Positions 15,898 to 58,665 of a stretch of 58,665 nt of DNA are shown piece after piece. The position numbers were made by a program, and so were the translations under genes. This stretch comes from a virus. The number at the start of each line of letters is the position of its first letter. The first letter of the stretch is position 1. Location: IMG/VR virus record IMGVR_UViG_3300036766_000466, positions 1-58,665 of that record. One strand, written 5' to 3'. The notes beneath the pieces are model-generated. The model had not been told where the DNA came from. It did no database searches and saw only the letters and a program-made list of their open reading frames with translations.

Positions 15898-16316
15898 TCA
15901 TTGATGGCAAGCTGGACATAGCTCCACTTGTTTATCAATTTCAAGTTTTTTAAAAAATCTTCCTCCATCTTTAGACAAAATCCTAAGAGATGGAATAGGG
16001 TTGTGTGGAGAAAGAAGAATTGTTACTGTGTCACCGTTTGTGATTGCATATGCTTTATTTTTAAATTTAGAGGTTTTTTTACCAAATTATTTACATCATC
16101 AATCACTAGAAGACTGAATCCAAGTTCGCGTATTCTTAGAGTATCGCCTTTCTTTGTGGCAGCGTCTTGAGTAATTCCAACGATATTATCAACTGACCCA
16201 AATTTTACGAATCCAGGTGTTTTTGAATATGTGACAATGCGATATTTTCCAATAGGATATTCTGCGCTAAATGTATTTTCCATTATATTAATTTCACCTA
16301 CCAAATCCATCATCAA
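15898..16316 (-). CDS. second decoration-protein paralogue, two frames joined at a slippery site
   Basis: The first 81 residues align with the head decoration protein 35209..35601: GEINIMENT against GDINIMEDT, GKYRIVTYSKTPGFVKFG against SKYRVVTYSSTQGFVTLG, DTLRIRELGFSLLVI against DTVRVRQLGKSLVVI. The zero frame stops at 16023 (97 aa). A canonical A AAA AAA heptamer at 16074-16080 allows a -1 shift into a frame open to 15898, giving 139 aa and restoring a GDTVTILL strand like the GDTITCFL end of the paralogue. Either a programmed frameshift or a one-base deletion in a decaying duplicate. Located far from the head genes. Confidence 0.6.
16074..16080 (-). promoter_or_regulatory. candidate -1 slippery heptamer
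   Basis: Zero-frame codons GTA AAA AAA form A AAA AAA. The zero-frame stop lies at 16023, 17 codons downstream, and the -1 frame stays open for 58 codons. Same heptamer as in the tail chaperone gene. No stimulatory structure was verified. Confidence 0.45.
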
Positions 16317-18373
16317 TGCACCGACGTTTCGCTTGGCGATTCTTTTCGTGTCTTTACTTTTAGTTGCTCCGATGAATCGATGCTACTTATTCGCTCCTCT
16401 TCCTCGGCTTCGATGGCCATTTTCCTTTGCATTTCTCTTACATCAGCACGGCCAAGAGAAAAATCAACTTCTGCCATTGACGTTGTTGCTTTACGCTTCA
16501 CGATAGCACCAACGGAATCTACATCATAATCGCCCATCTTCTCAAGGGCATTGAATATCGTTTCTATTTCCTCCCTGGTCTTGAAAACGTGTTCATCCAA
16601 AGCAATGCCACGGCCTTCAAGTTCTTCGAGTATTTCAGGAAAGAATTTTTTAAAGATAAACTCCTGGGCTTCCATGATCGTATAGCTGTAAAAATTTTTC
16701 TCTTTGTGCCTTACTTCTTTTTCTTTGGCATACACCCACTTTTTGTATCTGGGAAAGTATTTCTCGAATTTCTCAAAGATAGCTAATGAATCCGCACGGA
16801 CTGGCATCCAGGCAGAACCTTTCTTGATTGTTTCTCGGCTCCCCTCGATGGGGATTATTTTATACCTAGTTGGAACATCAGCCTCAAAAAAGATAGTGCC
16901 GTGAAGCGGCATAAGATAAGGTTCAATGGATAACCCAACACCCATTTTGCCCATCTTACGAAAGCCATTTATATCAATAATCATGTCTTCTGGACGTTCA
17001 TAAGGAGTATGAATCAAAAGAGTGTAATAAGGTTTGATACCGGCATCGAGTATCCACTGCGTAGTTTTCCATATACGCTCAGGGGTTTGCGGTTTGTTCA
17101 TCGAATTCAATTTCCATTGGGATACAGATTCGACACCAATCGAAAGCACTCTCATACCGGCTTTGGCACAACGGGCAACACCATCTTGATCTAGGCGATT
17201 TATATTCGTGAGACAGATGAATCCTAGATGCTCTGGAATTTCTCCAATCGCTTTTGCCGCGATGACGGATTCTGTGAAACCGCGTTCCCATTGTGGCGTA
17301 AGCAAAAAATCGTCGTCACAAAAAAATATCTGGTGAGTATCTGGATATTTTTCTATGACACGTTTTATTATTTTTACCGTGTCTGTTCCTGCCAAGCCAA
17401 CCGCTTTTGTCGGCTTGCCTGTGGCCGCACGTTGAAGGCCGGTGAGGGTGCAGTAGGCGCAATTGACTGGGCAGAACGAATGCATGAACAACCTAAATGT
17501 GTTTATATCTTGGAATTGTGGGTTATCATAAAGACAAGCTGTTTTTTTCCAGTAGTAGTCCTGGTGCATGGCCTGAAAGTCGAGTTCAAATATCCAATCT
17601 GTCCACTCTTCTGTCGTAATCGCCTTCGCATGGTTTCGCATAACAATCCCTGATGCGACAGTAGCCTTTGGTTCGAATAGAGACACCTTCTCTTCGTTGG
17701 CGATGTTGATGAGCGCCCACGGGTCTTGGCCAAGGACGACCATGTCCAGCGGCGACTTGTCGAAAATGGTTTGGTAGTTCAGGGTGGCCTGACTTCCGCC
17801 TCCAACCAGGATCGACTTCAGGGAGAGTTGTTTTGCTTTGATTATTTTTGAGATGTCATATTCGATTGTGGCGTCGAGGATTGAAAAGCCGATGATGTCC
17901 CAGGGTTTCCAGATGATGTTGGTATCTTCAGTAGCTCGTTTTTGAATTGTGAATAAATCGAGGAGGTCTGTATCAGGTCTCCAACACGTGCCATCTTCTA
18001 TTTCTAATTTTGTATCTGAGCAATAAATGCATCTAGCTACTGACCCCCATACGTGATTGCAATCATGCGCACGCACAATATAATGCCCAGGCATCCCTCT
18101 CTTAAATATTTCCTCAAGCGAAACATGCGGATGATCTTGATTGTCCGGATCTTCCCCAGGCTGCATATTCATGTCGTAGGTGGATGCGTAGTGTCCGTGG
18201 GCGTTAAGGCGGGAGGCTTGCCAGTGGCTTCCTTGGTGGGCCGTGACCCAGCGAGAGTCAAAAATAGATTCTTTGGTGTTCGGCCCGACGATCAGGATAT
18301 TCTTCGGCCTGATTCCTTCGGGTCTATTTTTTGGCGGGTTCAAACGAATTGCGGAGTCGTTGGTAATGCTCAA
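16313..18373 (-). CDS. B12-binding-type radical SAM protein, 686 aa
   Basis: SFCPVNCAYC supplies Cys 301, 305 and 308 for the 4Fe-4S cluster; the preceding 150 residues (WDIIGFSILD..., SILVGGGSQATL, DMVVLGQDPWAL) follow the Rossmann pattern of B12-binding domains, without a clear DxHxxG. Cys 105, 115, 118 and 130 form an extra N-terminal cysteine group. The last 100 residues are charged and helical. Likely does a radical methylation or rearrangement. TTG start with GGGAGAG upstream; overlaps the nucleotidyltransferase gene by about 50 bases. Substrate unknown. Confidence 0.8.
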   Translation of the reverse strand: MSITNDSAIRLNPPKNRPEGIRPKNILIVGPNTKESIFDSRWVTAHQGSHWQASRLNAHGHYASTYDMNMQPGEDPDNQDHPHVSLEEIFKRGMPGHYIVRAHDCNHVWGSVARCIYCSDTKLEIEDGTCWRPDTDLLDLFTIQKRATEDTNIIWKPWDIIGFSILDATIEYDISKIIKAKQLSLKSILVGGGSQATLNYQTIFDKSPLDMVVLGQDPWALINIANEEKVSLFEPKATVASGIVMRNHAKAITTEEWTDWIFELDFQAMHQDYYWKKTACLYDNPQFQDINTFRLFMHSFCPVNCAYCTLTGLQRAATGKPTKAVGLAGTDTVKIIKRVIEKYPDTHQIFFCDDDFLLTPQWERGFTESVIAAKAIGEIPEHLGFICLTNINRLDQDGVARCAKAGMRVLSIGVESVSQWKLNSMNKPQTPERIWKTTQWILDAGIKPYYTLLIHTPYERPEDMIIDINGFRKMGKMGVGLSIEPYLMPLHGTIFFEADVPTRYKIIPIEGSRETIKKGSAWMPVRADSLAIFEKFEKYFPRYKKWVYAKEKEVRHKEKNFYSYTIMEAQEFIFKKFFPEILEELEGRGIALDEHVFKTREEIETIFNALEKMGDYDVDSVGAIVKRKATTSMAEVDFSLGRADVREMQRKMAIEAEEEERISSIDSSEQLKVKTRKESPSETSVH

Positions 18374-21049: not shown

Positions 21050-21052
21050 CTA

Positions 21053-24648: not shown

Positions 24649-24649
24649 T

Positions 24650-25267: not shown

Positions 25268-25289
25268 GATATTGACCTTAATTTATAAT
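25261..25289 (+). promoter_or_regulatory. consensus sigma70 promoter for the HNH gene
   Basis: Plus strand: TTGACA (25261-25266), 17-bp spacer, TATAAT (25284-25289), a full match to both consensus hexamers. The expected start point falls on or next to the ATG at 25296, giving a leaderless mRNA. The -35 overlaps the start codon of the antisense methyltransferase. Confidence 0.8.
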
Positions 25290-25295
25290 ATTCTA

Positions 25296-25703: not shown

Positions 25704-25706
25704 TTT

Positions 25707-26828
25707 TTAGCATGACAGCACCACTGGAACCTCCCACGTAAATTCTGGTTCGTTTCGTCCAAAATGCCCGAACGCCGCGGTCTTCTGGTAGATGGGCCTC
25801 AAAAGGTCAAGCGAGGTAATAATGCCCTTCGGGGTTAAATCGAATGCCTTATGGACGGCCTTCTCGATGTCTCCGATTGGCACCGTTTCTGTTCCGTATG
25901 TCTCGATGGCAACGGAAACGGGCTCCGCGACTCCAATCGCATAGGCGATCTGGATCTCGCACTTTGATGCCGCGCCGGAGGCCACAACGCTCTTTGCGAT
26001 GCGCCTGGCGACGTAGGCGGCTGATCGGTCAACCTTTGATGGGTCTTTTCCGGAGAAGGCTCCTCCGCCGTGGTTTGCAGCCCCGCCGTAGGTGTCACAG
26101 ATAATCTTGCGCCCGGTCAGCCCAGTGTCTGCCTGTGGGCCCCCAACCTCAAACCGTCCGGTAGGGTTCACGAGGATTTTCATTTCTCCTGACAATTCCT
26201 GTGGGATTTGATTACGAACGAGGGTCTCAATTTCAGCCCGCATATCGCCCATAACAACGTCTGTCGCGTGATGAGCACTAACAACGACCGTTCGTACTGC
26301 CACTGGTTTCCCGTCCCTATATTCGACAGTTACCTGGCTCTTCCCATCCGGCCGCAGATAGTCGATAACGCCACTTTTTCGGCTCTCAGATAGGGCCCGC
26401 GTGATCCGATGGGCCAGCGTGATAGCTAAGGGCATAAGCTCCGGAGTCTCATCACAGGCGTACCCAAACATCATGCCCTGATCGCCCGCGCCACCGGTGT
26501 CCACGCCCATTGAAATGTCTGGGGACTGCCTTTGGATCGACGAGAGAATTCCACAGGTCTTCCCGTCAAAAATCCCCCCTTGGCCGTTGTAGCCGATATC
26601 TTTCAAGACCCCGCGCACAAGGTCAGCGACATCAACGTATGCCTTCGTTGTCATCTCGCCCGACACAACCACAAGTCCGTTTGTAACAAGAGTCTCGCAC
26701 GCAACTCGTGACAGTTTGTCTTGGGTTAGCGCGGCATCAAGTACCGCATCTGAAATTTGGTCGGCAACCTTATCTGGGTGTCCTTCGGTGACACTTTCGG
26801 ACGTGAACAGGCAATTCTTTCTTAGCAT
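25707..26828 (-). CDS. metK: S-adenosylmethionine synthetase, 373 aa
   Basis: Full-length Met[14 protein letters not shown] at the N-terminus (ATP/phosphate contacts), [12 protein letters not shown] (113-124) and [19 protein letters not shown] (254-272) are the two family signatures. E. coli MetK has 384 residues. Makes SAM from methionine and ATP as a tetramer in the cytoplasm. It lies upstream of the methyltransferases and overlaps the radical SAM gene 26822..28228 by seven bases, so SAM supply is co-expressed with SAM users. Rare in phages, where SAM-degrading enzymes are better known. Confidence 0.95.
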
Positions 26829-28228
26829 ACGATGGGTTCTTTCTGTTTATTGCGTACAAGTTCTCCGCCAAGACGGTCAAGTCCTTGATGGCTTGTGATA
26901 GCGACGTGCTTTTCCATGTGTTCGATCCGCCAATATTCTTTTTTGTTGATGTAGCCCTTCGTGATTTCAAATATTCGGTTGTGTGTCTTTCTCCCAAAAT
27001 CGATATTGATTAGCACGCGCACTAGACTATACAACCACGGCCACCGGACAACAGCAGACCAGTATTTTTGCAGACGCTCGATCTGTTTTTTTCCTTTGAT
27101 CGGAAGCGACCCTTCATCAAAAAAAGTCGAGTTTACAAGAGGCATCAAGTCTTCCTCTGATTTTACAAGACCCATTTTAACGACCCGCTTTGCTATTGCT
27201 GTACCTGGGTACGCTTGAAGAATGCTACACCATGAGAGCGTCGGTTTCATTTTCATATTAAATCTCAACGTTTCGAGTGCATCCGCGAGCGGGTCTTTAA
27301 CAGGGATCCCAAGCATGTTCTGCATGCGAAATTTAATTTTATATTTATGGAGCAACCGGCATCCAGCCTCAATAATCGCGTTTGGTTCTTCGCGGTCTAA
27401 AAACTCTCGACGTGTTTGTTCATTCCCGCTTTCGATGGCAAAGCTGACGATATGAATACCGGCTTCTTTAAGCAACTTGACCCTATCCTCAGTGATGAGC
27501 CGGGGACGGAGTTGTGCAAAGAAAGGTATTCGGACACGTTTGTAGAGACGGGTAAACTTCTCAAGCCACTGAAGGTCGATTCCAAAGATATCATCTTGAA
27601 AAGAAACAAGCTGTCCTCCGTAGTCATGAAATGTCCTTTCAATGTCCTCGATCAACCATTCCGGAGAGTGATATCTGAGCCGCTTCTCCTTCACCATATT
27701 CTGCCAATTGGTATTGGAGTTAAAACAATACTCGCATTTATAAGGGCACCCCTGGCAAGCAATGAAATTTCGGATGACGTTATCTCTGACCCCAGGAAAC
27801 TCATCATTGTAGAGTAGCAATCTGTCCGGGTGCGCCCGCGAGTCCAGGTCATCAATCGGAACGAAGTCAATCCACGGCTTCCCCTCAATGGCATGGAGAA
27901 CCGCCTCTTCAGCATCCCCCCGAATAATGATATCGGCGAAGTCCTGCTTTGACTTTGAAAAGTAAAGAAAGTGCGGCCCCCCGAATATCGTCTTGACGTG
28001 TGGGTATTTATTCTTGACCGCTCTCGCAACCGCCCCCCACCTATCTTGATCTCCTGTGAGGACTTGGAATGCCACAAAGTCCGGTTTCCACGTGGAAACA
28101 AAGCTCATTGTATTTTTTTCTTGGCAGGCTTTTGTTCGATGACCGGCACGGAGGAGGGACGCGCTCACATATTCGAGGCCAAGCGGCTCATGTGATGTGC
28201 CATCGTGAGTGATAAAAAGAATCTTCAT
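26822..28228 (-). CDS. B12-binding radical SAM protein, 468 aa
   Basis: Residues 1-120 match the B12-binding domain pattern ([51 protein letters not shown]) but without the DxHxxG that places a lower ligand, as is common for this class. Cys 161, 165 and 168 (CPYKCEYC) hold the cluster; [10 protein letters not shown] and [15 protein letters not shown] follow. Class B enzymes methylate unreactive carbons, often in sugars or antibiotics, consuming methylcobalamin and SAM. Precedes metK; substrate unknown. Confidence 0.85.
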
Positions 28229-28238
28229 TAAAACCCTT

Positions 28239-28490
28239 TTAGTGGGTGATAAAAATCAAAGCCTTTGAAAAGAATTGAACGACTACAGGCAAAATAAGCA
28301 GAATTATTATCGCGCCGCATCCCTGGAGAAACGCCTGCCATCTTTCTATCTTTCCAACGCGCCCGTTTTGAACACCAACTTTTGTATCTAAATTGCTCAC
28401 CGTTGTTCTTGTATCAGAGGCAAGTTGGCTTATCTTTCCAAGTTCGATCAAAACCATTTCTATGCTTGCCGTTCGACGCTCTTCGGACAA
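28239..28490 (-). CDS. small XhlA-like membrane protein, 83 aa
   Basis: N-terminal soluble coiled coil (IEMVLIELGKISQLASD...) and a single C-terminal transmembrane segment (IIILLILPVVVQFFSKALIF). That layout resembles XhlA/hemolysin-type phage proteins that help lysis, and it starts two bases from the GT9 stop. The lysis role is uncertain because it sits inside the sugar cluster. Confidence 0.5.
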   Translation of the reverse strand: MSEERRTASIEMVLIELGKISQLASDTRTTVSNLDTKVGVQNGRVGKIERWQAFLQGCGAIIILLILPVVVQFFSKALIFITH

Positions 28491-28491
28491 T

Positions 28492-29400
28492 TCAAACCCC
28501 CGTTGGTATCGGCTTTTTCCAAGTTTCTAGTATTGGTTCGAGCTTACTAAGGACATCTTGGACTGAAATCTTGGTGTTGCAGTTGACCTCATGGCGGCAG
28601 TTCGCATGGCACCGGATCACCTGGCAGTCGGCATACCCTGTTTCTTTTGCAAACAGGTGAATCACTCGATTTGATATTGGCCCGGACGTAAGAGGATTCG
28701 TAGACCCTTGAATCACGATTGTAGGCGTCTTCATGGCGTCCGCGATATAGCTCACTCCTGAATCAAGCCCCACAAAGGCCGCCGTCTGCGATAGAAAGGC
28801 CGCCAGTTCGAGGAAGGTCATCTTTCCGCATAGATCGACGGCTCCCTTCACTTTCTTGTCGTCTCGGCCCCCAACCTGGACGACCCCATAACCGGCCACT
28901 CTCAGCTCTTCGACCAGTCGATCGAAGTAAGGCCAGTCCTTTGATTCAACACCGGACGTGGTGTGAATGGCCACGCGAGGGACATCTAGGGTTATGTGCT
29001 CCGATGCCTTTAAAAAATCAGCATCCGTTGGAAACAGGTAGCACTCGCGCTCGGTAATTGGCCTGTGTCGTCCCATGCGCATCCAGTAAAAATCCAAAAG
29101 GTTCTGGTGGCGCGTCTCCTCGATCTGGTGCCAGGCGTTACACTCTCGCCTTTGTTGGATGGGACAAAACACTTTGTCGTATTCGCCTGACGCCATCTGC
29201 ATAAAAAGAAGATTCGGGTTCCAATCATCAGGGGCGTGTATCTCAAAAACTTCTGGGTTATTGGAAAAAAGCTCGCCATACATTTTGTTTGTGAACACGT
29301 GAATTTCTGAATCGGGATAGTCTTTTTTTAGCTCTCGGACGAGAGTCGTCCCGATCAAAACATCCCCGAGCGTCTTGAGCATGCAAAACATTATTTTCAC
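28492..29400 (-). CDS. family 9 glycosyltransferase (heptosyltransferase-like), 302 aa
   Basis: LGDVLIGTTLVRELKKDYPD is the GT9 N-terminal motif, and FVGLDSGVSYIADAMKTPTI followed by QGSTNP the C-terminal donor-binding motif of ADP-heptose:LPS heptosyltransferases. GT9 enzymes act at the inner membrane on lipid A core. The neighbouring heptose-activation genes make it the likely user of the product, though phage donor specificity is unknown. Two Cys clusters near the end (ADCQVIRCHANC, NCNT) may bind metal. Confidence 0.8.
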   Translation of the reverse strand: MKIMFCMLKTLGDVLIGTTLVRELKKDYPDSEIHVFTNKMYGELFSNNPEVFEIHAPDDWNPNLLFMQMASGEYDKVFCPIQQRRECNAWHQIEETRHQNLLDFYWMRMGRHRPITERECYLFPTDADFLKASEHITLDVPRVAIHTTSGVESKDWPYFDRLVEELRVAGYGVVQVGGRDDKKVKGAVDLCGKMTFLELAAFLSQTAAFVGLDSGVSYIADAMKTPTIVIQGSTNPLTSGPISNRVIHLFAKETGYADCQVIRCHANCRHEVNCNTKISVQDVLSKLEPILETWKKPIPTGV

Positions 29401-30560
29401 GCTGTCACCTCTTCCGCTCTCACAAACGCAGGCTTTGTTTTTGGCTTGTAGAGGTTAGCGACCTCCGATATAAACGCCACAGCCATATTCGCCCATGTCG
29501 CCTCACGCGCCCATTCCATCGCTTTCGCCGCCTTGTCTTTTGCCTCGCCATAGTTTGAAACAACATGCCGCATTGCCCCGCGCAGATCGTCAATATTCAC
29601 GTGACACCATTTGCTGTTTAGGGCCGCGAGACACTTTGAAATGTAGTTCGGGTCGTCGATTATTTTGAGAGACGCCTGGACTGGGTATGAATTAAACGAA
29701 TTCAAATAATCCGTGTGTGCAGACCAGTCGGCATGAATCACAGGCACCCCGGATGCCATAGCCTCAAGATATTGCATTCCAAGACCTTCTCCGCGTGAGG
29801 TAAGGACAAAGGCATCGCAAGACCTGTAAAGAGAAGCCATCGCCTGTTCTGATATCTTGTCGCCCCAGAATAAAATGCGAGGCGGGTTATCCCCTGCGAA
29901 ACGATTGGCAATTTCCTTAAATTTATTTACGCAATCCCTCCGGTGACGTTTTACGAATCCGCCAAAGTGGGATTTTATGAGTAGTGTCACCGCCTCGCTC
30001 CCGTTAAATTCTTTCACGAATGCTTCGACGACTGCCTCGAAATTCTTTCTCTCGGTGAAGTCGCCCGAAGTCAAGAATACGAATCCTTTCTTATTTGATA
30101 TGGACATCTTCGGCCCGTCCGGGTTGTACATGAACGAATCGACAGCAACAGGAAGTGCGGATATTTTATCCGCAGGTATCCCTGACTCCACCCACCCGGC
30201 ACGGTTGAACTCACTGAACACAAGAATTTTGTCCATCTCCATCAGATTGTGCATCCACGGCTGAGGGCACCGGTCAGTCTCAAAAAGGGTGTAGCAGATT
30301 GTCGGCGCGTCCTTTGTGACCGGCTGGCCTTTTGGGAGCTGGTAGATCACGTGAGGGGCGAGAGGGTTAACCCTATTTTGGGCCATACGCATAAGGCGTG
30401 ACATCACAACAGGCGACAATCCAACGCGCTCGGCATTCCAATCCTGAGACGGACGGAGTTCAATATCCACACCCATTTGGTCGAGGGCGAGAATCAGACC
30501 ACGAGAAAGCTGTTCAAACCCAGACTGGCCCCAAACGGGGGCGTAAAAAATAAGCTCCAT
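29397..30560 (-). CDS. family 4 glycosyltransferase, 387 aa
   Basis: GT-B fold; SRGEGLGMQYLEAMASGVPV is the EX7E donor-binding motif of GT4 with the retaining mechanism. The N-terminal domain starts YAPVWGQSGFEQLSRGL, the acceptor side. The start touches the stop of 30560..31003 (one-base overlap) and the stop overlaps the GT9 gene. Sugar and acceptor not known. Confidence 0.82.
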   Translation of the reverse strand: MELIFYAPVWGQSGFEQLSRGLILALDQMGVDIELRPSQDWNAERVGLSPVVMSRLMRMAQNRVNPLAPHVIYQLPKGQPVTKDAPTICYTLFETDRCPQPWMHNLMEMDKILVFSEFNRAGWVESGIPADKISALPVAVDSFMYNPDGPKMSISNKKGFVFLTSGDFTERKNFEAVVEAFVKEFNGSEAVTLLIKSHFGGFVKRHRRDCVNKFKEIANRFAGDNPPRILFWGDKISEQAMASLYRSCDAFVLTSRGEGLGMQYLEAMASGVPVIHADWSAHTDYLNSFNSYPVQASLKIIDDPNYISKCLAALNSKWCHVNIDDLRGAMRHVVSNYGEAKDKAAKAMEWAREATWANMAVAFISEVANLYKPKTKPAFVRAEEVTA

Positions 30561-31003
30561 TATTTGTGATCCCCGTCACAATTGTCATTCTTCCACGCAT
30601 CCGATTTCAGTTCATTCTTAAAATAGGCTTTCATCGCATCAAACATTTCGCCTTGAGTCTTAAGAAGATCTTTCCCTCTTTCATCTTCTTCTGGTACTGG
30701 ATCATATGTCATTCCAATAACATCTTGCATTAAAAACATTGTCTTTTTTGGCAACGGTTCATCTTCTGTTTGTGGCCGCCCATCCATGAAAAAATAAATA
30801 GACCACGGGCTATCTTCTGGTGCAATTTTTTTCCTTTCGTCTTCGCCCAAAATTAAAAACTTGATATATTTATGCCAATGATCTATGCATTCCCTTGCTG
30901 TTTTTGCCGTTGATTTAGCGGTGATGCATTGGCCAGACCTCAAATAAACAAAAACATATACTATGATATTCCCGTCCAGCTTTTTTGATACTTTTTCGTA
31001 CAT
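30560..31003 (-). CDS. hypothetical protein, 147 aa
   Basis: Unrecognised. Begins with beta-type sequence (NIIVYVFVYLRSGQ) and ends in charged helix. Tightly coupled with the GT4 gene downstream and two bases from the membrane gene upstream, so part of the cluster. May be a small adaptor or regulatory protein; nothing in it tells which. Confidence 0.5.
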   Translation of the reverse strand: MYEKVSKKLDGNIIVYVFVYLRSGQCITAKSTAKTARECIDHWHKYIKFLILGEDERKKIAPEDSPWSIYFFMDGRPQTEDEPLPKKTMFLMQDVIGMTYDPVPEEDERGKDLLKTQGEMFDAMKAYFKNELKSDAWKNDNCDGDHK

Positions 31004-31004
31004 T

Positions 31005-31250
31005 TTATTTTTCCTCTTTTATTAATCCGTCAAGAAACCACGAAGCCCCTGAAGCCATGATCGCATACGCTGTTACATCCGGCCATCCGGTAATTGGAAA
31101 GAACATTCCACAGAAAGCAAGACCAACCCAAAAACTAAGACAGGCTGTGCATTTAAACGGCTTCATGTACCGAAGCGGGGTACCTTTAAATATTATTTGA
31201 ACCAGGATCACAGAACCGTAAACAAAAAAAACGTATTTGACGAAGTCCAC
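31005..31250 (-). CDS. small membrane protein with CxxC, DUF1360-like, 81 aa
   Basis: Two or three hydrophobic segments, with a KPFKCTACLSFWVG motif in a loop after the first one, resembling DUF1360 membrane proteins (Cys-x-x-Cys followed by FW). Could be a holin-like or membrane accessory protein. Next gene starts two bases downstream. Confidence 0.5.
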   Translation of the reverse strand: MDFVKYVFFVYGSVILVQIIFKGTPLRYMKPFKCTACLSFWVGLAFCGMFFPITGWPDVTAYAIMASGASWFLDGLIKEEK

Positions 31251-31255
31251 GGTAT

Positions 31256-31321
31256 TTAGCTTCCTTTACAACAATGAGATACCCTAGGCACAGAGAATCG
31301 AATAGATATGAGCGTGTTCAT
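31256..31321 (-). CDS. possible 21-residue peptide
   Basis: ATG at 31321 with an AAGGAG site six bases upstream and TAA at 31256, filling most of the 31251-31337 gap. The only support is the ribosome binding site; it may instead be a leader peptide. No other feature is seen in the gap. Confidence 0.3.
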   Translation of the reverse strand: MNTLISIRFSVPRVSHCCKGS

Positions 31322-31337
31322 TTTTTCTCCTTAATTC

Positions 31338-32576
31338 TCATATAACAACTTCAAATTTCTTCGGCTTCATGAACGGGATTTCCATCTCCATAAACAATGC
31401 GTGCCAATCGTCGAGCACACGATCCCACGTGTAGCTCGTGGCAAAATCATACCCCGCCCTTGCTATCGAATCCCGGTACGGCTTGTCCTTGTATACCCTC
31501 AAAAACGACTTCAGGGCCGCGTCCGCGTCCGGGACAGGCCGTTGTGTAAGGTGGCTTCCTGTCCACGTAAGGGAGCCGCCGATGGGCACCAAATCGGCCC
31601 TTCCTGCGGCCCCAAGCTCTGCGCTCGCCGAGTGGTCAAGGAGGATGCACGGGAGCCCCGTAGCCATCGCCTCGAACGTGGGAAGGCCGAAACCCTCCCC
31701 TGACAGAAGCACGAAGGCATCGGCAATCTGGTAAAGCTCGGCCAGACGCTCGTTTGGAAGGAGCATCATCTCATGCCCAGAGTGAGCGACTTGGTCGAAG
31801 TACATAATGCTTCTATTTTTTAGCTCAAGCACCTGTAGCAGGTCGTCTATTTTCCACCCCATCGGATCGTCAAAGTACATGTGTGGCCACAGGATTACTT
31901 TTTCTTTTGTCTCCGGAAGCTCCGAAAACCGCTTCCATACCCTTAAAAGCTCCGGGATATTTTTCCTCGATTGGTTGCGACAGACGGTCAAAAATACAAA
32001 TTTATCTGTTAATCCGTACCGCTCTCTTATTTCCTGCCGTTTCTTTTTGTCACCAGGGTTAAACATTTTTGTATCGACGCCGTGGTAGATCGTGCGGATT
32101 CTGTTCCTTGTCTCCTGGTCAAATATGGATTTAAGAATGGCGTTTTTGGCATAGTCCGTGTATGCCACTGGGATATCAATATCCTCAATGATCGGTTTTA
32201 TGGCAGGGGGCAGGCCGCCACCGATTGGCTCACCATCAACTGGGCAATAACTACTCCACTGAAAAAATCTTCTCGTCCTGCAAATATTTGGGTCGGCAAT
32301 ATAATAAAGGTGCCAGAAGTCCCCAATGGTCAGGAGAACATCAGGTTGAAATTTATTCACAACTGAATCCAATATGTCCGCTCCGTAGTGTTGGTTATTC
32401 GTGAACCAACAGCGGATTCCTTCCGGGTTGGTTGCTGGAATCTCAGAGTGTTGGAACCAGCCAATGTGCCCGATCTCGTGTCCGCGCTTTTGAAGGCCCA
32501 AGCATAACTCATTTGTCAGTCGTCCCATTCCTGACATGATATTCAGGGAATCACTCATGCAGAGGATACGCATCAA
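31338..32576 (-). CDS. family 4 glycosyltransferase, 412 aa
   Basis: GT-B, GT4: MSDSLNIMSGMGRLTNELCL at the N-terminus, TIYHGVDTKMFNPGD mid-protein, and SGEGFGLPTFEAMATGLPCI with the EX7E residues. First gene of the accessory cluster; its ATG overlaps the stop of connector gene 32573..33079 by four bases, so the cluster is read through from the head transcript. Confidence 0.85.
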   Translation of the reverse strand: MMRILCMSDSLNIMSGMGRLTNELCLGLQKRGHEIGHIGWFQHSEIPATNPEGIRCWFTNNQHYGADILDSVVNKFQPDVLLTIGDFWHLYYIADPNICRTRRFFQWSSYCPVDGEPIGGGLPPAIKPIIEDIDIPVAYTDYAKNAILKSIFDQETRNRIRTIYHGVDTKMFNPGDKKKRQEIRERYGLTDKFVFLTVCRNQSRKNIPELLRVWKRFSELPETKEKVILWPHMYFDDPMGWKIDDLLQVLELKNRSIMYFDQVAHSGHEMMLLPNERLAELYQIADAFVLLSGEGFGLPTFEAMATGLPCILLDHSASAELGAAGRADLVPIGGSLTWTGSHLTQRPVPDADAALKSFLRVYKDKPYRDSIARAGYDFATSYTWDRVLDDWHALFMEMEIPFMKPKKFEVVI

Positions 32577-48186: not shown

Positions 48187-48411
48187 TTATACTTTCTTTT
48201 CTGGCGGCGCTGCGCCTCGCATTAATTTCTCGCCTTCTCGTGGAGGATCAAATCTATCATAGAATCCATCCATTTCCTCACTGGTTAGCAGGCGATATAT
48301 TCTGACTGTCAATATTTGAGACGCCTGAGTACCCGGACGACACAAGGCCCTCCAAATCAAATACGCTTCTGTTGCCGTAAGATTTAAAACTCTATCTCTT
48401 TTTACTCTCAA
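48187..48411 (-). CDS. hypothetical protein, 74 aa
   Basis: Small, basic, with an AYLIWRALCRPG helix. TTG start; overlaps the DUF4430 gene by 20 bases and stops just before 47162..48184. Unknown function. Confidence 0.5.
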   Translation of the reverse strand: MRVKRDRVLNLTATEAYLIWRALCRPGTQASQILTVRIYRLLTSEEMDGFYDRFDPPREGEKLMRGAAPPEKKV

Positions 48412-48862
48412 CAGAAACGTATTTCCACTTTACATTGTCGCCTGATTTTAGAATTGTGTGCGCATTCGTGTTCGCATAATCCCCATTGACGGACACAATC
48501 CAGTAGCGGCCTTCGGAATAGTTCCCAATCCCATCCACAGACAAAACCCCGTATTCATCGGCACATATTTTTCCATATTTCACGTGGTGTTTTTTTGAAA
48601 GAACGTCTGCCGTAGTTGAGCCAATCGGCATGATCTCGGAGTAATGTTCTCTTGTCCCTCCGTGTTCGATCTCAACTTGAACGTCTGCCGCGTAAAATAT
48701 CCCAGGTTGTTTGGCTTCTTGTCTTGTTGGGACATCAATACCCGGAACCAAACCAATAGATGCTTCGGCCGCAAGTGAGACTCGTGCACAAAACAAAAAA
48801 AACAATGCCCCTGCTTTTATCATGCCCTTTTGGATCTGTTGGCGTCGAGTGGGCCGCATCAT
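48392..48862 (-). CDS. exported DUF4430 (transcobalamin-like C-terminal domain) protein, 156 aa
   Basis: N-terminal signal peptide: basic n-region (RPTRRQQIQK), hydrophobic AGALFFLFCARVSLA, cleavage probably near SLAA/E. Residues about 45-150 carry the DUF4430 pattern: beta sequence with RYWIVSVNGDYANTNAH and SGDNVKWKYVSVE, the family related to the C-terminal cobalamin-binding domain of transcobalamin and intrinsic factor. Binding to cobalamin is inferred, not shown. Cysteines are few. The location near a BtuB-like receptor is notable. Confidence 0.7.
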   Translation of the reverse strand: MMRPTRRQQIQKGMIKAGALFFLFCARVSLAAEASIGLVPGIDVPTRQEAKQPGIFYAADVQVEIEHGGTREHYSEIMPIGSTTADVLSKKHHVKYGKICADEYGVLSVDGIGNYSEGRYWIVSVNGDYANTNAHTILKSGDNVKWKYVSVESKKR

Positions 48863-51272: not shown

Positions 51273-51935
51273 TTAATCATCCTCCCAATCTTCACTTATT
51301 TCTGTCTTTAGAATAACTGGGCTTGGCCCATAAATAACATCCCCCACCGCCATCAAAGCCAGCGTTATTTGTTCGTTCATTTTGTCCGCAAGTTCCACCG
51401 CCATCTTTTTAAAATAATCCTCTGACGTGTTCCCAACAATATCCGAGATCACCTTGACGACTGAGTACGGGATTGCGTGCGCTTTACAAAACTTTGCAAC
51501 AGCGAAAGATTCCATGTCTGTCGCACAAGCGTCAAAATAGCCATATGGGTCGGTCTTTAAGAATTTGTCCTGCGAGATGAACGGTACTATTTTCCAATCA
51601 AAATCAAATATCGTTGGGCCGGGTTCCCCACATTTAGGTATTTCATGTTCTGCGTCGCTTTCAAAATCGCCTGCGTCAAAATCCCCCTCACGGAAAAACT
51701 CGGCCTGCACCTTTTTCCCTGCGGGTAATTCTTTCTCGTTCAATGAACCGGCATACCCGGCCAAAATCACCCATTCGAGCGAACCAAACTTATGCAATGA
51801 TTCGTAAAGGCACCCAAGCGTCCGTAGCTTTCCCATCCCCGGCGACTGGATCACAACCTTTCCATTTAATTTTTCAGGCATGATGAATTGGAGGATATTG
51901 AATTCATACTGAGTGGGGAGGATTAGGAGGATCAT
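51273..51935 (-). CDS. 5'-methylthioadenosine/SAH nucleosidase-like protein, 220 aa
   Basis: PNP_UDP_1 superfamily by pattern: LAGYAGSLNE near 60-70 (substrate phosphate/ribose loop) and ACATDMESFAVAKFCKAHAIP around 140-160, where DMES supplies the ribose-binding Glu, then VVKVISDIVG with the catalytic Asp. In bacteria this enzyme cleaves MTA, SAH and 5'-deoxyadenosine to adenine. It overlaps 51932..52123 by four bases (ATGA) and the GT gene is just downstream. Other nucleoside phosphorylases are possible, but APRT next door fits an adenine product. Confidence 0.75.
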   Translation of the reverse strand: MILLILPTQYEFNILQFIMPEKLNGKVVIQSPGMGKLRTLGCLYESLHKFGSLEWVILAGYAGSLNEKELPAGKKVQAEFFREGDFDAGDFESDAEHEIPKCGEPGPTIFDFDWKIVPFISQDKFLKTDPYGYFDACATDMESFAVAKFCKAHAIPYSVVKVISDIVGNTSEDYFKKMAVELADKMNEQITLALMAVGDVIYGPSPVILKTEISEDWEDD

Positions 51936-52123
51936 TTCCTCCACCAGTCAGCGTCGTCCACTTCTTTTCCTGACATAAAATTATGTCTGAAAATACATTC
52001 GAGGACATTATTAAATGCTTTAAGTTCCTGACTCAATTTTTGAATACGGATTATTACCGTGATGCTCAAAAAAATATGGATGGTGAGCACAGCCAACACA
52101 ACCCACAGAACTGTCGTTATCAT
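51932..52123 (-). CDS. small single-pass membrane protein, 63 aa
   Basis: N-terminal transmembrane segment (TTVLWVVLAVLTIHIFLSITVII), then a charged tail ending GKEVDDADWWRK. GGAG six bases before the ATG; start codon overlaps the APRT stop (ATGA), end overlaps the nucleosidase start. Function unknown, perhaps a membrane anchor for the neighbours. Confidence 0.6.
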   Translation of the reverse strand: MITTVLWVVLAVLTIHIFLSITVIIRIQKLSQELKAFNNVLECIFRHNFMSGKEVDDADWWRK

Positions 52124-52644
52124 GGCAACTCCATCAAACACGCGATTTTGTCCGGTTCGGCAATCGGTTCTTTTTGCAGTCCTGCAATGCTGGCGACAAA
52201 AATAAATCCTGCCACCTGCGCCCCGCAGTCGCGGATAAGCTCCGCCGCCGCGAACGCCGTCCCACCCGTGGCCAGAATGTCGTCCACGATTAGGATTCTC
52301 TCGCTCGGCATAATGTCATTTTGATGGATTTCGATACACCCCTGGCCGTATTCCAGGTCGTAAGCTATGCGGTGTGTCACGCCCGGGAGCTTTCCGCATC
52401 GACGGATCGGGACGAACCCAACGTCACAGGCCAGGGCAAGGGCCGAACCGACGATAAAGCCCCGCGCCTCGATCCCGACGATTTTATCGAATGGCATAAA
52501 TCGATGCGCGAGCTTTTCTAGTTGTAGGATTAGCTCGCTGAATGCGGCACCATCCGAAAATATTGGCGTGAGGTCGTAGAATAAGATTCCTTTTTTTGGG
52601 AAGTCTTGGACTCTGGCTATTTTTGATTTTAGATATTCACTCAT
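52120..52644 (-). CDS. apt: adenine phosphoribosyltransferase, 174 aa
   Basis: Type I PRTase: KKGILFYDLTPIFSD (19-31) is the APRT N-terminal motif, IVGIEARGFIVGSALA follows, and ILIVDDILATGGT (117-129) is the PRPP-binding loop. Full length for bacterial APRT (about 170-180). Converts adenine plus PRPP to AMP. Start overlaps the MazG stop by four bases. With the adjacent nucleosidase it would recycle the adenine of used SAM. Confidence 0.93.
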   Translation of the reverse strand: MSEYLKSKIARVQDFPKKGILFYDLTPIFSDGAAFSELILQLEKLAHRFMPFDKIVGIEARGFIVGSALALACDVGFVPIRRCGKLPGVTHRIAYDLEYGQGCIEIHQNDIMPSERILIVDDILATGGTAFAAAELIRDCGAQVAGFIFVASIAGLQKEPIAEPDKIACLMELP

Positions 52645-53150
52645 TTTGTTGGGTTCTCCCTGTCCTCAATCCCGTATTGTTGAAATACTTCTCTCATCCG
52701 CCAGCGTACTGCCTCGTTTAAATCAATTCCCAAAATATCGGCCATCAAACACGATAAGGAAATGATATCGACAAGCTCACGTGCGATCTTTATCGGTGCA
52801 GGAAGTTTGTCTATCATGGCCTCGGCTTCTTCCTCGTATTTCCAAAGAGCTGACGAACATTCGGCTATTTCCTCGAATAAATGCCTTAATACCAAATCAG
52901 CCCTGCGTCTATATCCTTTCTTTGTCTCGACTTCTTGTACAAACTCCATAATCGCTTCGGTGTTAAGGTATGACCCTGCACGCATGGGGACACGTCTACA
53001 CCGACAAGCCGGGCACCGAGTGGGTGGGGTGGACACCTTCCACTTTCCATCGGCGACCAACTTGTCGAATTTCCTCTGCTCGTCTGCCATCCAAACAAAG
53101 TCTTTAGAGCAGACCTGGCAGGTGAGGGTTAGGTCTTTTTTAGCGTCCAT
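52641..53150 (-). CDS. zinc-ribbon fused to MazG-like NTP pyrophosphohydrolase, 169 aa
   Basis: Residues 1-55 are a small zinc ribbon (LTCQVCSKDFVWMADEQRKF... CPACRCRR) of the zf-trcl type. Residues about 65-165 are all-helical with HLFEEIAECSSALWKYEEE and ARELVDIISLSCLMADILG, carrying the acidic EExxE and ExxD pattern of MazG/dUTPase-like pyrophosphohydrolases. Such enzymes clear noncanonical or excess NTPs. The ribbon may add nucleic-acid binding. AAGGAG site; a pentanucleotide repeat lies just upstream. Confidence 0.7.
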   Translation of the reverse strand: MDAKKDLTLTCQVCSKDFVWMADEQRKFDKLVADGKWKVSTPPTRCPACRCRRVPMRAGSYLNTEAIMEFVQEVETKKGYRRRADLVLRHLFEEIAECSSALWKYEEEAEAMIDKLPAPIKIARELVDIISLSCLMADILGIDLNEAVRWRMREVFQQYGIEDRENPTK

Positions 53151-53236: not shown

Positions 53237-55129
53237 TTAAAATTCCGTCCTTACCCCGCCGAACACCCCAAGCCCTGGCGTACGAAATCCTGACTCCGTG
53301 TACCCCTCGTCGAAGATATTTTCAATCCGTCCGTAAACCTGAACGGCCTTTGCTATTTCGTAAGACGCCCCGGCATCAACACGCACAAACGCGTCTTCGT
53401 GTATCTTGTCCGTCAGAAAGGTGTCCAGGTTAAATATTCCGACAGTCCGCGGCCCGATGTACGTTCCGCGTGTCCATGCGGTGAACTTCCCTGATTTCCA
53501 TTCGACCTCGCCGCCCCACTGGTTCTTTGGGATATCAAAAGAGCCAGTGCCTTCCGCGAGGGCTTGCGTGTAGGTGTGCGAGACGCGAGCTTTTAAACCA
53601 TCAGCGGGCTTCCAATCAGCGAAGCTCTCCACGCCCCAGGTATGCCCTTGCCCACCTATGTTTTCATACCCAAACCCGACAAAATCAATCTGACTAATTA
53701 GGTCGTGTCTGAAATAGGTCGATCCGACAAGAATATCCTCGGACAGATTCTGCTCCGCGCCGAAGTCGTACCCGGTCGATCTTTCCGGGGACAGCGTTGG
53801 GTTTCCCACGTTGAACGTGCCCCATTCGGTCAGGAAGGCTCCGTGTTTCTCGTAGAGAGACGGTGCGCGGTATGCGGTTCCGTAGTGTGCCTTGAGGTGG
53901 GTTCCAGGGACGACCCACAGCGATGTGGCGGCATCCCACGTTGCGCGGCTCTTGGTGTGATCTGGGTTAGACTGCCTGGCCCCTATCGTCGAAACCCACT
54001 TCTCATCAAACAGGCCGATTCTTTCCTGGGCAAAATATTCGTTTCTGCCTGACCTGCTTTGAAGCTCCTGGTCTCCGCCCGGGATCGACTTGGCGAAGAT
54101 CGTCTGCCATTCGGTCTCGTGTTGGTATCCGATTGTCGTCGTCAGATTGTCATTGTGGATGAAATCAAGCTGTTCATCGAACGCCAAATTTTGGCCCTTG
54201 TATCCGCCATCATTGTAAAAACCCGTTCCATCTTCGTTCGGCAGAAATTGAAACCTGCGGGCGGAGTCGGTATACCCGATCCTGGACGACAGATTAATAC
54301 TCTCCGAAATCGGGACGGACAAATGAACCCCGTAATTACGAAGCTCGTTCTCCCGGCGATCATTTTCGTCAGCCGAGTCTTTTAACGTGACGCCTCCGAT
54401 TACAAGTGGCGAATGTTTTAACGCACCGTCAGCGTTGTATCCAAGAAACGTGGTCTCAATGCGTGCTCCACCATCCCATGAATAACCAAGCCTTGAATTA
54501 AACGACGTGTTTCCGTATCCATCATGCGCGTCGATGCCATCCGAGTCCGTGCGCCCAAGACGGTTGTAAAAATCAAACCCTTTTGAGACGCCTTCGGTCT
54601 CAATATATTCCCGGAATGTCCCACGACTCCCGTACTCAAACCCGCCATTGGCTCGCGGTGCCCCGTGGCCACGCTTCGTGTAGAGGGCCACCACGCCAGC
54701 CTGGGCGTCCGATCCGTAAAGGGCGCTCCCGGTTCCACGTGTGATCTCGGTGCGACCAATTCCACCCTCCATGAGGTCGAGCCATAAAGGGTTTGCGCTT
54801 CCTTGAGGATCCGAGGGGTCACGAAGAGGAAGGCCATCCACCATGAGCTTCGTGTCGATTGATCGAAGGCCACGGACACGGATCGTTGTGAGGCCACCAA
54901 GACCGTTGGCCTGCTTTACACGCACACCGGGGATGGTCACAAATCCATCTATGATGCGCTCATTTACGGTTTCGTCAGGCCCAAGAACATCGACCGACTT
55001 TCCGACCGAGTATTTGGATTCGGACAACCTCGTCGGACTGATTACGATTGTGCCGAGATCAACGGAGTCTTCTGCGAATGCAGACCCACTTAAAAACACA
55101 GCTAATATAAAAAATAGTCTCTTTTTCAT
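53237..55129 (-). CDS. TonB-dependent outer-membrane receptor (BtuB-like), 630 aa
   Basis: MKKRLFFILAVFLSGSAFA is a clean signal peptide, then a TonB-box-like DLGTIVISPTR. The plug domain follows (IPGVRVKQANGLGG, TIRVRGLRSIDTKLMVDGLP, IGRTEITRGTGSALYGSDAQ) and about 480 residues of beta barrel, ending in GVFGGVRTEF with the C-terminal Phe needed for assembly. Size (BtuB about 600) and plug fit cobalamin or siderophore receptors. The start at the ATG has GGGGG upstream; the GTG two codons earlier is less likely. Phage genes on both sides rule out an obvious host flank. Such a gene in a phage is unusual. Confidence 0.85.
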   Translation of the reverse strand: MKKRLFFILAVFLSGSAFAEDSVDLGTIVISPTRLSESKYSVGKSVDVLGPDETVNERIIDGFVTIPGVRVKQANGLGGLTTIRVRGLRSIDTKLMVDGLPLRDPSDPQGSANPLWLDLMEGGIGRTEITRGTGSALYGSDAQAGVVALYTKRGHGAPRANGGFEYGSRGTFREYIETEGVSKGFDFYNRLGRTDSDGIDAHDGYGNTSFNSRLGYSWDGGARIETTFLGYNADGALKHSPLVIGGVTLKDSADENDRRENELRNYGVHLSVPISESINLSSRIGYTDSARRFQFLPNEDGTGFYNDGGYKGQNLAFDEQLDFIHNDNLTTTIGYQHETEWQTIFAKSIPGGDQELQSRSGRNEYFAQERIGLFDEKWVSTIGARQSNPDHTKSRATWDAATSLWVVPGTHLKAHYGTAYRAPSLYEKHGAFLTEWGTFNVGNPTLSPERSTGYDFGAEQNLSEDILVGSTYFRHDLISQIDFVGFGYENIGGQGHTWGVESFADWKPADGLKARVSHTYTQALAEGTGSFDIPKNQWGGEVEWKSGKFTAWTRGTYIGPRTVGIFNLDTFLTDKIHEDAFVRVDAGASYEIAKAVQVYGRIENIFDEGYTESGFRTPGLGVFGGVRTEF

Positions 55130-55166
55130 TGCCACACCCCCGCTTATCTTATAAAATTAATTTCAC

Positions 55167-56062: not shown

Positions 56063-56227
56063 TTAAGTCTCTTGAATTATTCCAGTGCCCTTACAACATT
56101 TGCACGGATAAGACGTTCGATTGTTTGCCCAAGTCTGTTGGTCTCCCGCTACCCACGGGGGCTTAGAGATAATTCCTTGACCATCACAGACGGGACATTT
56201 CTGGAACATCGGACGCAACTCATTCAT
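56063..56227 (-). CDS. DnaJ-type zinc-finger protein, 54 aa
   Basis: CPVCDGQGII near 11-20 and CKCCKGTGII near 42-51 are two CxxCxGxG knuckles, the same pattern as the DnaJ cysteine-rich zinc finger. DnaJ uses it for substrate release; here it stands alone. Overlaps the Imm5-like stop by eight bases. Confidence 0.7.
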   Translation of the reverse strand: MNELRPMFQKCPVCDGQGIISKPPWVAGDQQTWANNRTSYPCKCCKGTGIIQET

Positions 56228-56843
56228 GGCCCATCCCCCCATCTCCTAAGAGTTTAATCCCATACTCAAGACAGGTTTTTTGGAGTTGTTTTCTGGCGGC
56301 GGCATTGGCGGCATAGTTGGCGGCATAGCTGGCGGCATAGGCGGCATAGGCGGAATCGGCGACATAGGCGGCGGTGGCGGCGGCATCGACGACATCGGCG
56401 GCATAGGCGGTGGCGGCGGCGGTGGCGGCGGCGTCGGCGGCATAGTTGGCGGCGGAATCGGCGGCGGCGGTGGCGGCGTCGGCGGCGGCATAGGCGGCGT
56501 CGGCGGCGGCGGCGGCCCTATTATTTTTCTTGTTTGGAGTTCTTAAATACTCTTTCGCCGCTTCAATCGCTTTCCGTGGTCTCTTATCGTCAGGATACTT
56601 CTTCTCGTAAATATCAATCACCTGTTCCGCGCAGAAGATCGCATATTGGACGCACTTTGTTTTGTCAAAAAGTCGCACAAGCACCCAGTTGGCCCAAGGG
56701 TAATGGTTGCCATCAAAGAGTTCGAGGATAAACTTCTTGGCGTTCATTTTTTTGCCATTTAGCTTATTGAGCGACCACTCGTAGCCGTCAGAGCAGGCGT
56801 TGTGTTTTTTGAGCCATTCTTTTGAGATCGTGTGCTTTTTCAT
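56220..56843 (-). CDS. Imm5-like putative immunity protein with Ala-rich repeat, 207 aa
   Basis: Start chosen at 56843 because GAGGGAG lies five bases upstream; an ATG 14 codons earlier overlaps the neighbour's stop. The first 100 residues match the Imm5-like family (HTISKEWLKKHNACSDG, WANWVLVRLFDKTKCVQYAI, YPDDKRPRKAIEAAKEYL). Residues about 105-195 are an Ala/Asp/Tyr repeat in which Ala triplets alternate with AYA and ADA, probably a long helix or disordered rod. Phage proteins of this family are often near terminases or early genes; immunity function is not proven. Confidence 0.65.
   Translation of the reverse strand: MKKHTISKEWLKKHNACSDGYEWSLNKLNGKKMNAKKFILELFDGNHYPWANWVLVRLFDKTKCVQYAIFCAEQVIDIYEKKYPDDKRPRKAIEAAKEYLRTPNKKNNRAAAAADAAYAAADAATAAADSAANYAADAAATAAATAYAADVVDAAATAAYVADSAYAAYAASYAANYAANAAARKQLQKTCLEYGIKLLGDGGMGHE
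56285..56520 (-). repeat. imperfect triplet repeat coding Ala-rich segment
   Basis: GCx-rich short repeat (units of 9-15 nt such as GCCGCCTATGCC) in the Imm5-like gene. Codes for AYAA, ADAA and similar units and may change in number by slippage without breaking the frame. Confidence 0.7.
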
Positions 56844-56881
56844 TTTGCTCCCTCGGCTAACTGGCCCTGAAGTGTCTTTGG

Positions 56882-57067
56882 TCATACACTATTTCCTTGA
56901 TAGTCAAAAGACACTCCAAAGTTTCCACATGGGAAATATTCAGCTCGTTTTAACATTGCTTTGTAGATTGGTTTGTTTCTATCAATTTTTACCTGCTTGC
57001 ACTTTTTTGTGCAAAACTTCTGATTAGGGTCGCTATTCTTGGCTCCACAGATTTGACAATTCTTCAT
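56882..57067 (-). CDS. small zinc-finger protein, 61 aa
   Basis: CQICGAKNSDPNQKFCTKKC gives a CxxC plus CxxxC metal site, followed by a basic helical tail. ATG overlaps the stop of 57064..57171; the stop overlaps an alternative ATG of the Imm5-like gene. Likely zinc-binding, role unknown. Confidence 0.6.
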   Translation of the reverse strand: MKNCQICGAKNSDPNQKFCTKKCKQVKIDRNKPIYKAMLKRAEYFPCGNFGVSFDYQGNSV

Positions 57068-57368: not shown

Positions 57369-57704
57369 TTAATCAGCCACCACTCTAGGAGTATTGGTCA
57401 GATGGTCATACTCAACTTTCCGCCGAACAATGTAATCCCCTGCCGGAAGAACCTGCGTATCATGTCGATCTTCCAATACACACTTCACCTGGGCCTCATC
57501 CTCGACATGAACAAACAGAGTCCCATCTACTCCCTCATAGACATCAACACCGTCCTGGGCCACTAGGATATGGTGGTTCCCTGAAATTTCAGAGTTTGCC
57601 AGAATATATCGGCCATCCTTCTGCTCAACCTTCTTCGCAGACTTTGGCTTATTAGCACCACTAATTACAGCAACCTCACCATGAAAATAGACTAGTTTCT
57701 TCAT
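57369..57704 (-). CDS. hypothetical beta-rich phage protein, 111 aa
   Basis: Conserved-looking small protein with EISGNHHILVAQDGVDVYEGVD and VLPAGDYIVRRKVEYDH. ATG overlaps the stop of the DUF6745-like gene by four bases, so the two are coupled; they often occur together in phages. Function unknown. Confidence 0.6.
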   Translation of the reverse strand: MKKLVYFHGEVAVISGANKPKSAKKVEQKDGRYILANSEISGNHHILVAQDGVDVYEGVDGTLFVHVEDEAQVKCVLEDRHDTQVLPAGDYIVRRKVEYDHLTNTPRVVAD

Positions 57705-58665
57705 TTGATTCCTCCTATGGAATACTCTTCCTCGTTAATTCCAAGCTGAAAATCCAACGCCTCTCCAATTGTCTTACATTTTGGGTCAATCCCTTCCAAG
57801 TGATAGACTCCAGTAGTCTGATTCTTCATCCAAATATAGGGACAGTAACGTTTCTGAAAACCAGTCTCAGACATAAACTTACCCATATCTAGTAGCTCAT
57901 ACTCAGACTTCGCCCACCACGGGTCATTATGCCTATCCCACTTATCAATAGTCTCGCCATAACCTTTCATCTTAACCATCCCGGCCTTTCTAATAAACTC
58001 GGCCTTTTGGTCAGCGTTCTTCAAACTATTAAACTGTTCCAGTTTTAATGCTTCTGCCGGAGTCTCAATAAGCCATCTAGGAACCCCAATTCCATTTAAA
58101 TGCCATAGTCCCCACCCATCGGGCCAACTAATTGACATCCCAGATTCTGAGTGTAAACGGCCTTGAAAGTTTCTATTGATCTGAGACGGCCTGGCGCATA
58201 CCATCACAAAGTCTTTATTAGGACAAATATAGCTAACTGATTCGCATACTTTTCTGTAAGCTTCGGCTCTCTCCATAATGTCTTTATCGAGTTTTAATCC
58301 GCAAACATCGATCATAAAACTTAAAGAGGCGGGCCCGTAATATGAGTACCCATAACCTACCCAAAACTGTCCACCTAGCCAGTAGTGCCATTCGATATCC
58401 AGTCCAAGTTTTCTGATAATCTTTAAAGCACCGTCCACAGCATCGCCCACAGCATCGCCCACAGCACCGCGCATAGCACCGCGCATAGCACCGTCCACAG
58501 CACCGTCCACAGCACCGCGCACAGCATCGCCAACAGCACCGCCCACAGCACCGCCCACAGCACCGCGCACAGCATCGCGCACAGCATCGCGCACAGCATC
58601 GCCCACATCACCGTCCACAGCATCGCGCACAGCATCGCGCACAGCATCGCCCACAGCACCGCGCA
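57701..58665 (-). CDS. DUF6745-like protein with N-terminal 4-residue repeats, partial at right edge
   Basis: The C-terminal 220 residues match DUF6745 by pattern (SWPDGWGLWHLNGIGVPRWLIETPAE), a domain common in phages and Streptomyces. The N-terminus is about 19 units of a 12-nt repeat coding [DGR]AV[GRD]. A GTG at 58654 could start it, but the repeat frame stays open to the window edge, so the true start is outside. Function unknown. Confidence 0.6.
   Translation of the reverse strand, partial: RGAVGDAVRDAVRDAVDGDVGDAVRDAVRDAVRGAVGGAVGGAVGDAVRGAVDGAVDGAMRGAMRGAVGDAVGDAVDGALKIIRKLGLDIEWHYWLGGQFWVGYGYSYYGPASLSFMIDVCGLKLDKDIMERAEAYRKVCESVSYICPNKDFVMVCARPSQINRNFQGRLHSESGMSISWPDGWGLWHLNGIGVPRWLIETPAEALKLEQFNSLKNADQKAEFIRKAGMVKMKGYGETIDKWDRHNDPWWAKSEYELLDMGKFMSETGFQKRYCPYIWMKNQTTGVYHLEGIDPKCKTIGEALDFQLGINEEEYSIGGIK
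58430..58665 (-). repeat. 12-nt tandem repeat coding DAVR-type units
   Basis: About 19-20 copies of a 12-mer of the type GCGATGCTGTGC (minus strand), with changes mostly at two positions. It runs to the window edge. Coding frame gives GAT GCT GTG CGC units. Copy number can change by slippage without a frameshift. Confidence 0.85.

Follow-up and report, generated by a model that had tools for sequence, protein, structure and literature searches.

A phage-borne receptor of the BtuB type

An intact, uninterrupted open reading frame (ORF) encoding a TonB-dependent outer-membrane receptor (TBDR) is located on the minus strand at positions 53237-55135 of an IMG/VR virus record. This record of 58,665 bases was analysed over its whole length and is referred to as the window. 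The preferred start of the ORF is the ATG at 55129, which leads to a protein of 630 aa; an in-frame GTG further upstream, at 55135, is also possible. The N-terminus consists of MKKRLFFILAVFLSGSAFA followed, after the putative cleavage site, by EDSVDLGTIVISPTR, and the C-terminus reads GGVRTEF with phenylalanine as the last residue. Signal peptide and TonB box were called by eye and by alignment (Table 1). A plug followed by a barrel, together with a signal peptide, a TonB box and a C-terminal aromatic residue, are the hallmarks of a TonB-dependent receptor. An earlier note on this DNA had described a full receptor with these parts at 53237-55129; the ORF, the Pfam matches and the alignment bear this out, and the coordinates are correct with ATG 55129 as the best start.

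Table 1 Features of the window and of BtuB-like loci in other phage contigs (L numbers denote loci outside the window)
Feature	Position	Strand	Remark
BtuB-like TonB-dependent outer-membrane receptor	53237..55129	-	630 aa, start ATG 55129
Signal peptide MKKRLFFILAVFLSGSAFA	55073..55129	-	Basic start, hydrophobic core, cleavage site between AFA and E; by eye
TonB-box-like stretch LGTIVISPT	55031..55057	-	Aligns with DTLVVTANR of E. coli BtuB
Plug domain PF07715	54692..54997	-	Pfam, E 1.2e-11, above cut-off
Beta-barrel domain PF00593	53315..54523	-	Pfam, E 1e-25, above cut-off
Portal/minor head fusion (phage anchor)	42092..44992	-	Portal phrog_113, E 6e-60
Terminase large subunit (phage anchor)	45002..46582	-	Phage homologues
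Secreted or periplasmic DUF4430 (PF14478) protein	48392..48862	-	Pfam
B12-binding (PF02310) and radical SAM (PF04055) protein, CPYKCEYC	26822..28228	-	Possible user of imported cobalamin
Radical SAM protein, CPVNCAYC	16313..18373	-	Best NCBIfam models are B12-dependent radical SAM families; no Pfam B12-binding match
Third radical SAM protein	13794-14858
S-adenosylmethionine synthetase	25707..26828	-
MTA/SAH-nucleosidase-like protein	51273..51944	-	Pfam match covers C-terminal part only
Adenine phosphoribosyltransferase	52120..52644	-
T4-like phage group	L154-L171		Gene adjoins tail structural genes
Second phage group	L174-L185, L188-L190, L196		Gene adjoins virion-structural and DNA primase genes
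AdoCbl-II phage group	L172, L173, L191		Receptor behind AdoCbl-II riboswitch
Single phage loci	L186, L187
AdoCbl-II riboswitches	L172:7868-7946, L173:1891-1969, L191:9207-9285		Upstream of phage BtuB-like genes

The top five matches among the PDB sequences are BtuB chains (E 3e-15 to 2.7e-14), and two BtuB models of NCBIfam are the best for the receptor with about 100 bits each. The protein is filed as BtuB-like because the curated BtuB cut-offs are not reached (99.8 versus 599.7 bits for the equivalog TIGR01779, 100.6 versus 836 for PRK10641). The TonB-B12 model is followed by hemin and siderophore models at a distance of only about 10 bits; L109, a cellular relative under riboswitch control, likewise stays below the TonB-B12 cut-off with 338.1 bits. 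A structure model built from the window protein and 20 relatives from viral contigs (21 sequences; pLDDT 74.9, pTM 0.79) contains the strands of plug and barrel; an earlier model from 6 sequences was too poor (pLDDT 38.7) and was set aside. The first 12 fold matches of the 21-sequence model in the PDB are BtuB entries (E 2e-33 to 1.5e-30), followed by FepA, PfeA and Cir, and the BtuB3G3 complex with cyanocobalamin is also among the matches. In a library of viral structures only one receptor match was convincing, to a SusC-type protein from an uncultured marine phage (BFVD A0A8D9FQQ5). The assignment to the BtuB type made before is supported by the PDB matches in both sequence and fold, and the barrel model that had been proposed, now calculated, has BtuB and then FepA as its nearest folds.

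Phage surroundings and possible users of B12

The window has neither end repeats nor Ns, and 77 of its 87 ORFs (greedy tiling) lie on the minus strand. In addition to the portal and terminase genes it encodes a tail tube protein (PF18906), a head maturation protease and a TipJ-type tail tip. The receptor gene is flanked by a MazG-like/treble-clef gene (52641-53150) and by a series of short ORFs, and its codon usage is indistinguishable from that of the rest of the phage (z = 0.5). The claimed position among phage genes on the phage strand is thus well founded on portal, tail and terminase genes, the one-strand array and the codon usage. Host synteny or a nesting among the host genes of one species, which could have spoken against it, was looked for and not found. 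As an intact metabolic gene of host type inside a phage genome, and no artefact of a host edge, the gene belongs to the auxiliary metabolic genes. Searches with the portal and the terminase detected no sister phage (best terminase match 34%). Two low-complexity repeat proteins are encoded at 57701-58654 (GDAVRDAV-type repeats with a DUF6745 domain) and at 56220-56885 (an alanine-rich, Imm5-like protein).

Several genes of the window may be connected with B12 or S-adenosylmethionine (SAM). The SAM synthetase, the MTA/SAH-nucleosidase-like protein and the adenine phosphoribosyltransferase (APT) form a possible SAM-recycling set beside radical SAM and methyltransferase genes. The region 18324-32576 encodes glycosyltransferases, a GHMP kinase, a nucleotidyltransferase, methyltransferases and a heptosyltransferase-family protein, and resembles a phage glycan pathway. 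The phage may provide cofactors for reactions of the radical SAM type and for methylations, perhaps in the modification of glycans. Genes for inner-membrane corrinoid transport or corrinoid synthesis were not recognised by Pfam and NCBIfam among the larger genes of the window.

The DUF4430 domain is common to the C-terminal domain of vertebrate transcobalamins (PMC4350170), and the DUF4430 protein of the window could, at a guess, be a corrinoid-binding partner of the receptor. The genomic context lends this partnership no support, as only one out of 198 genomes from the phylum of the relatives has the domain, and 0 of 21 other records of BtuB-carrying phages. Relatives of the protein were not found in phage or plasmid collections. 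A BLAST match to the "BtuF-like" L108 (E 1e-4) was dismissed since Pfam reads L108, weakly, as Peripla_BP_2.

Relatives in cells and in other phages

Cellular relatives were drawn from a sample of one phylum, identified as Bacteroidota because a Pedobacter locus belongs to it, and from alphaproteobacterial plasmids. The nearest of them are full-length and about 30% identical to the window receptor (25-31%, E down to 3e-59). In the 45 loci scanned for riboswitches, which were the best matches to the query receptor, the cobalamin riboswitch RF00174 is located directly upstream of the receptor gene in 42 cases (39/42 and 3/3); the three loci that have none (L143, L145 and L146) are among the more distant relatives. 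Many receptors of the Bacteroidota set are followed by genes for a periplasmic binding protein, CobQ, a CobD-type aminotransferase, CbiB, CobA/BtuR, a FecCD permease and an ABC ATPase, and a Shinella relative has an ABC importer and an adenosylcobinamide amidohydrolase downstream. The window itself gave no match to Rfam, hence a known riboswitch was not detected at the phage receptor.

When the single protein served as query in scans for close relatives, viral contigs yielded no phage relative, and the sole match in genome contigs covered 45 residues of a Pedobacter receptor. Of the 46 loci that alignment-based scans of viral contigs gave, 38 were sorted as phage. The T4-like group has 17 of these, the second group 16 and the AdoCbl-II group three, and the remaining two are single loci. 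The receptors are full-length in all phage groups and the gene order is kept within each group, which argues against chimeras. In all five phage representatives tested TonB-B12 is the top NCBIfam model (E 8e-43 to 5e-87). Furthermore, the AdoCbl-II riboswitch RF01689 (82-84 bits) precedes the receptor gene by about 0.6 kb on the same strand in L172, L173 and L191, and this arrangement is the most direct tie of a phage-borne receptor to B12. An ORF of 101 aa lies between riboswitch and receptor gene in L172 and L191, and in L191 a gene for a FAD/NAD oxidoreductase (12018-12821) is found downstream of the receptor. The cut-off of RF00174 was reached in none of 43 records, the window included. 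The data suggest that phages can boost the B12 uptake of the cells they infect.

Carriage of such a receptor by a phage had been called very unusual. It is rare, but in view of 38 phage contigs in several groups and of published phage TBDR genes of another or no assigned type (PMC9723777; PMC10504331) the expression is too strong.

Some matches had to be discounted. Those in a phage collection to "Acinetobacter phage MD-2021a" and to Salmonella records look like bacterial contigs, and the matched Acinetobacter region contains trpA, trpB, folC and other host genes. The phage-filed records L002 (CAKLQH020000002.1) and AFYI01/AGRM01 contain normal loci of bacteria, with trp and fol genes or with a 16S rRNA gene beside btuB, and give rise to false matches to a "phage BtuB". 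The receptors L009-L012 come from enterobacterial viral contigs, where their genes lie at prophage edges or close to them, and were set aside because they group with CirA/FepA.

A tree of 43 sequences unites the window gene, the T4-like phage group and riboswitch-controlled receptors encoded on plasmids (support 95/89), although the branch of the window gene is long (1.87) and the placement of a long branch is uncertain. With the same caveat, the tree that the earlier note had proposed puts the receptor into a BtuB-like clade with receptors under cobalamin control. A topology that joins the window gene to FepA, CirA and L009, a receptor from a prophage edge, was rejected (p-AU 0.005). A single clade of all phage-borne receptors was rejected as well (p-AU 0.0005), so that under this model phages have acquired BtuB-like genes more than once.

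B12-binding proteins were also looked for in the phage records. G235, a record of 67.7 kb which holds the single locus L186, encodes a B12-binding radical SAM protein (L203:241-1875) whose B12-binding match is below the cut-off; a permuted tmRNA and several tRNAs are present in the same record. The association between the carriage of BtuB and that of a B12-binding protein was not significant (2/23 versus 1/49 records, p = 0.24). A class II ribonucleotide reductase was rejected as the cause of a B12 need, since none exists in 23 records.

Proposed role during infection and comparison with known receptors

The window thus carries an intact phage-borne receptor which is of the BtuB type in sequence and predicted fold, belongs to a clade with riboswitch-controlled cellular members and has no detected riboswitch. 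It is likely that this gene is an auxiliary outer-membrane importer for corrinoids, i.e. compounds of the vitamin B12 type, from the BtuB-like clade, which acts during infection. The receptor would be expressed from the phage genome and inserted into the outer membrane of the host. Energised by the TonB of the host, it would bring corrinoid into the periplasm, from where a BtuFCD-type system in the host inner membrane may relay it onward. The corrinoid would then feed B12-dependent chemistry, probably including the B12-binding radical SAM enzyme of the phage itself. As the phage copy is without a cobalamin riboswitch, B12 would not shut the receptor off and the infected cell would keep on importing corrinoid, presumably to the benefit of the phage.

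The earlier note regarded the ligand as not readable from the sequence. A corrinoid can be inferred from the relatives: 42 of 45 cellular ones lie behind a cobalamin riboswitch, the grouping with FepA and CirA is rejected, and three phage contigs have an AdoCbl-II riboswitch ahead of the gene. Its suggestion that the receptor could be a cobalamin importer gains support from the same relatives, the tree and these contigs. However, with a branch of 1.87 and about 30% identity to any relative the ligand may have drifted. An importer for heme, a siderophore or another chelate, in which the BtuB-like fold was kept and the specificity changed, would agree with this divergence and with the hemin and siderophore models that lie only some 10 bits behind. 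It is nevertheless unlikely, since cobalamin riboswitches control nearly all of the close relatives, BtuB takes the first 12 places among the fold matches and a grouping with FepA/CirA is rejected.

A decoy or replacement receptor, which soaks up or excludes competing phages and colicins or feeds the cell while the host receptor is blocked, appears quite improbable. Phages often use TBDRs as receptors, among them FhuA and BtuB, the latter for example in the case of a Salmonella phage (PMC7599459), and phages are able to inactivate such receptors, as Cor does with FhuA (PMC11436027). However, TonB box, plug and barrel, i.e. the parts for transport, are all retained, the AdoCbl-II riboswitch ahead of the gene in one phage group fits import and not exclusion, and an exclusion gene was not recognised next to the receptor. 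Positive evidence for the decoy or phage-blocking function, which had been named as an alternative before, was not found.

Other TBDRs of viral contigs, namely L009-L012, do lie at or near prophage edges, and in principle the gene could be an assembly chimera or host DNA caught at the edge of a prophage. This is very improbable, as the one-strand gene array extends on both sides of the gene, the codon usage is that of the phage, a near-identical cellular gene is missing (best about 30%) and independent phages hold such a gene amid phage genes in conserved order. Another reading, put forward for the TBDR gene of the pelagiphage Skadi (PMC10504331), takes the product as a marker of phage entry that serves as the adsorption receptor. 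It is hardly credible here, because the first adsorption takes place on an uninfected cell, in which a phage-encoded receptor does not exist, and because the protein has a signal peptide and an outer-membrane barrel of its own and matches no virion protein.

Beyond the corrinoid importer of the window, a wider interpretation is put forward tentatively, as possible rather than probable. As a strategy for B12 supply, BtuB-like corrinoid importers may have been captured again and again by unrelated phages, in some cases together with an AdoCbl riboswitch of their own. Here the importer would belong to a B12/SAM set. B12-dependent radical SAM enzymes and a SAM synthetase would be further members, a nucleosidase and APT would recycle the adenine by-product, and the secreted DUF4430 protein might serve as a corrinoid binder.

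Many waters contain little vitamin B12, and most bacteria depend on its import. If the corrinoid reading is true, phage B12 importers, either free of B12 repression or under a switch of their own, would change the competition of infected cells for B12, and a class of outer-membrane transporters would join the genes by which phages steer metabolism. Whether corrinoid uptake limits the yield of some phages is a question which is now open to a clean test.

Among known receptors, E. coli BtuB (PDB 2gsk, 1nqh) is the closest solved structure to the window receptor by sequence and by predicted fold, and both possess signal peptide, TonB box, plug, barrel and C-terminal phenylalanine. In contrast to E. 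coli BtuB, the window receptor is phage-borne, has no riboswitch, shares only about 20% identity with it and scores far under the curated cut-off. The nearest clade consists of the riboswitch-controlled BtuB-like receptors of the Bacteroidota set and of the alphaproteobacterial plasmids. These are located behind cobalamin riboswitches and often adjoin genes for inner-membrane corrinoid transport, whereas the phage copy has neither. Both traits are common among these receptors but do not define the clade. The BtuB-like receptors of other phages are likewise embedded among phage genes but only 19-25% identical to the window gene. TonB-dependent receptors in phages as such have been described before. 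A marine megaphage carries a SusC-type TBDR gene (PMC9723777) and the pelagiphage Skadi a TBDR gene read as an adsorption receptor (PMC10504331); together with the marine phage protein A0A8D9FQQ5 they resemble the window gene in this respect. However, SusC is a receptor of the carbohydrate type with 11% identity to the window receptor in the fold match, and neither the SusC nor the Skadi gene has been tied to B12. In the part of the literature that was covered by our search we found no report of a phage-borne BtuB or of a cobalamin riboswitch in a phage. The TBDR genes of phages mentioned there are SusC or receptors of no given type, and the BtuB type as an auxiliary gene of a phage appears to be new.
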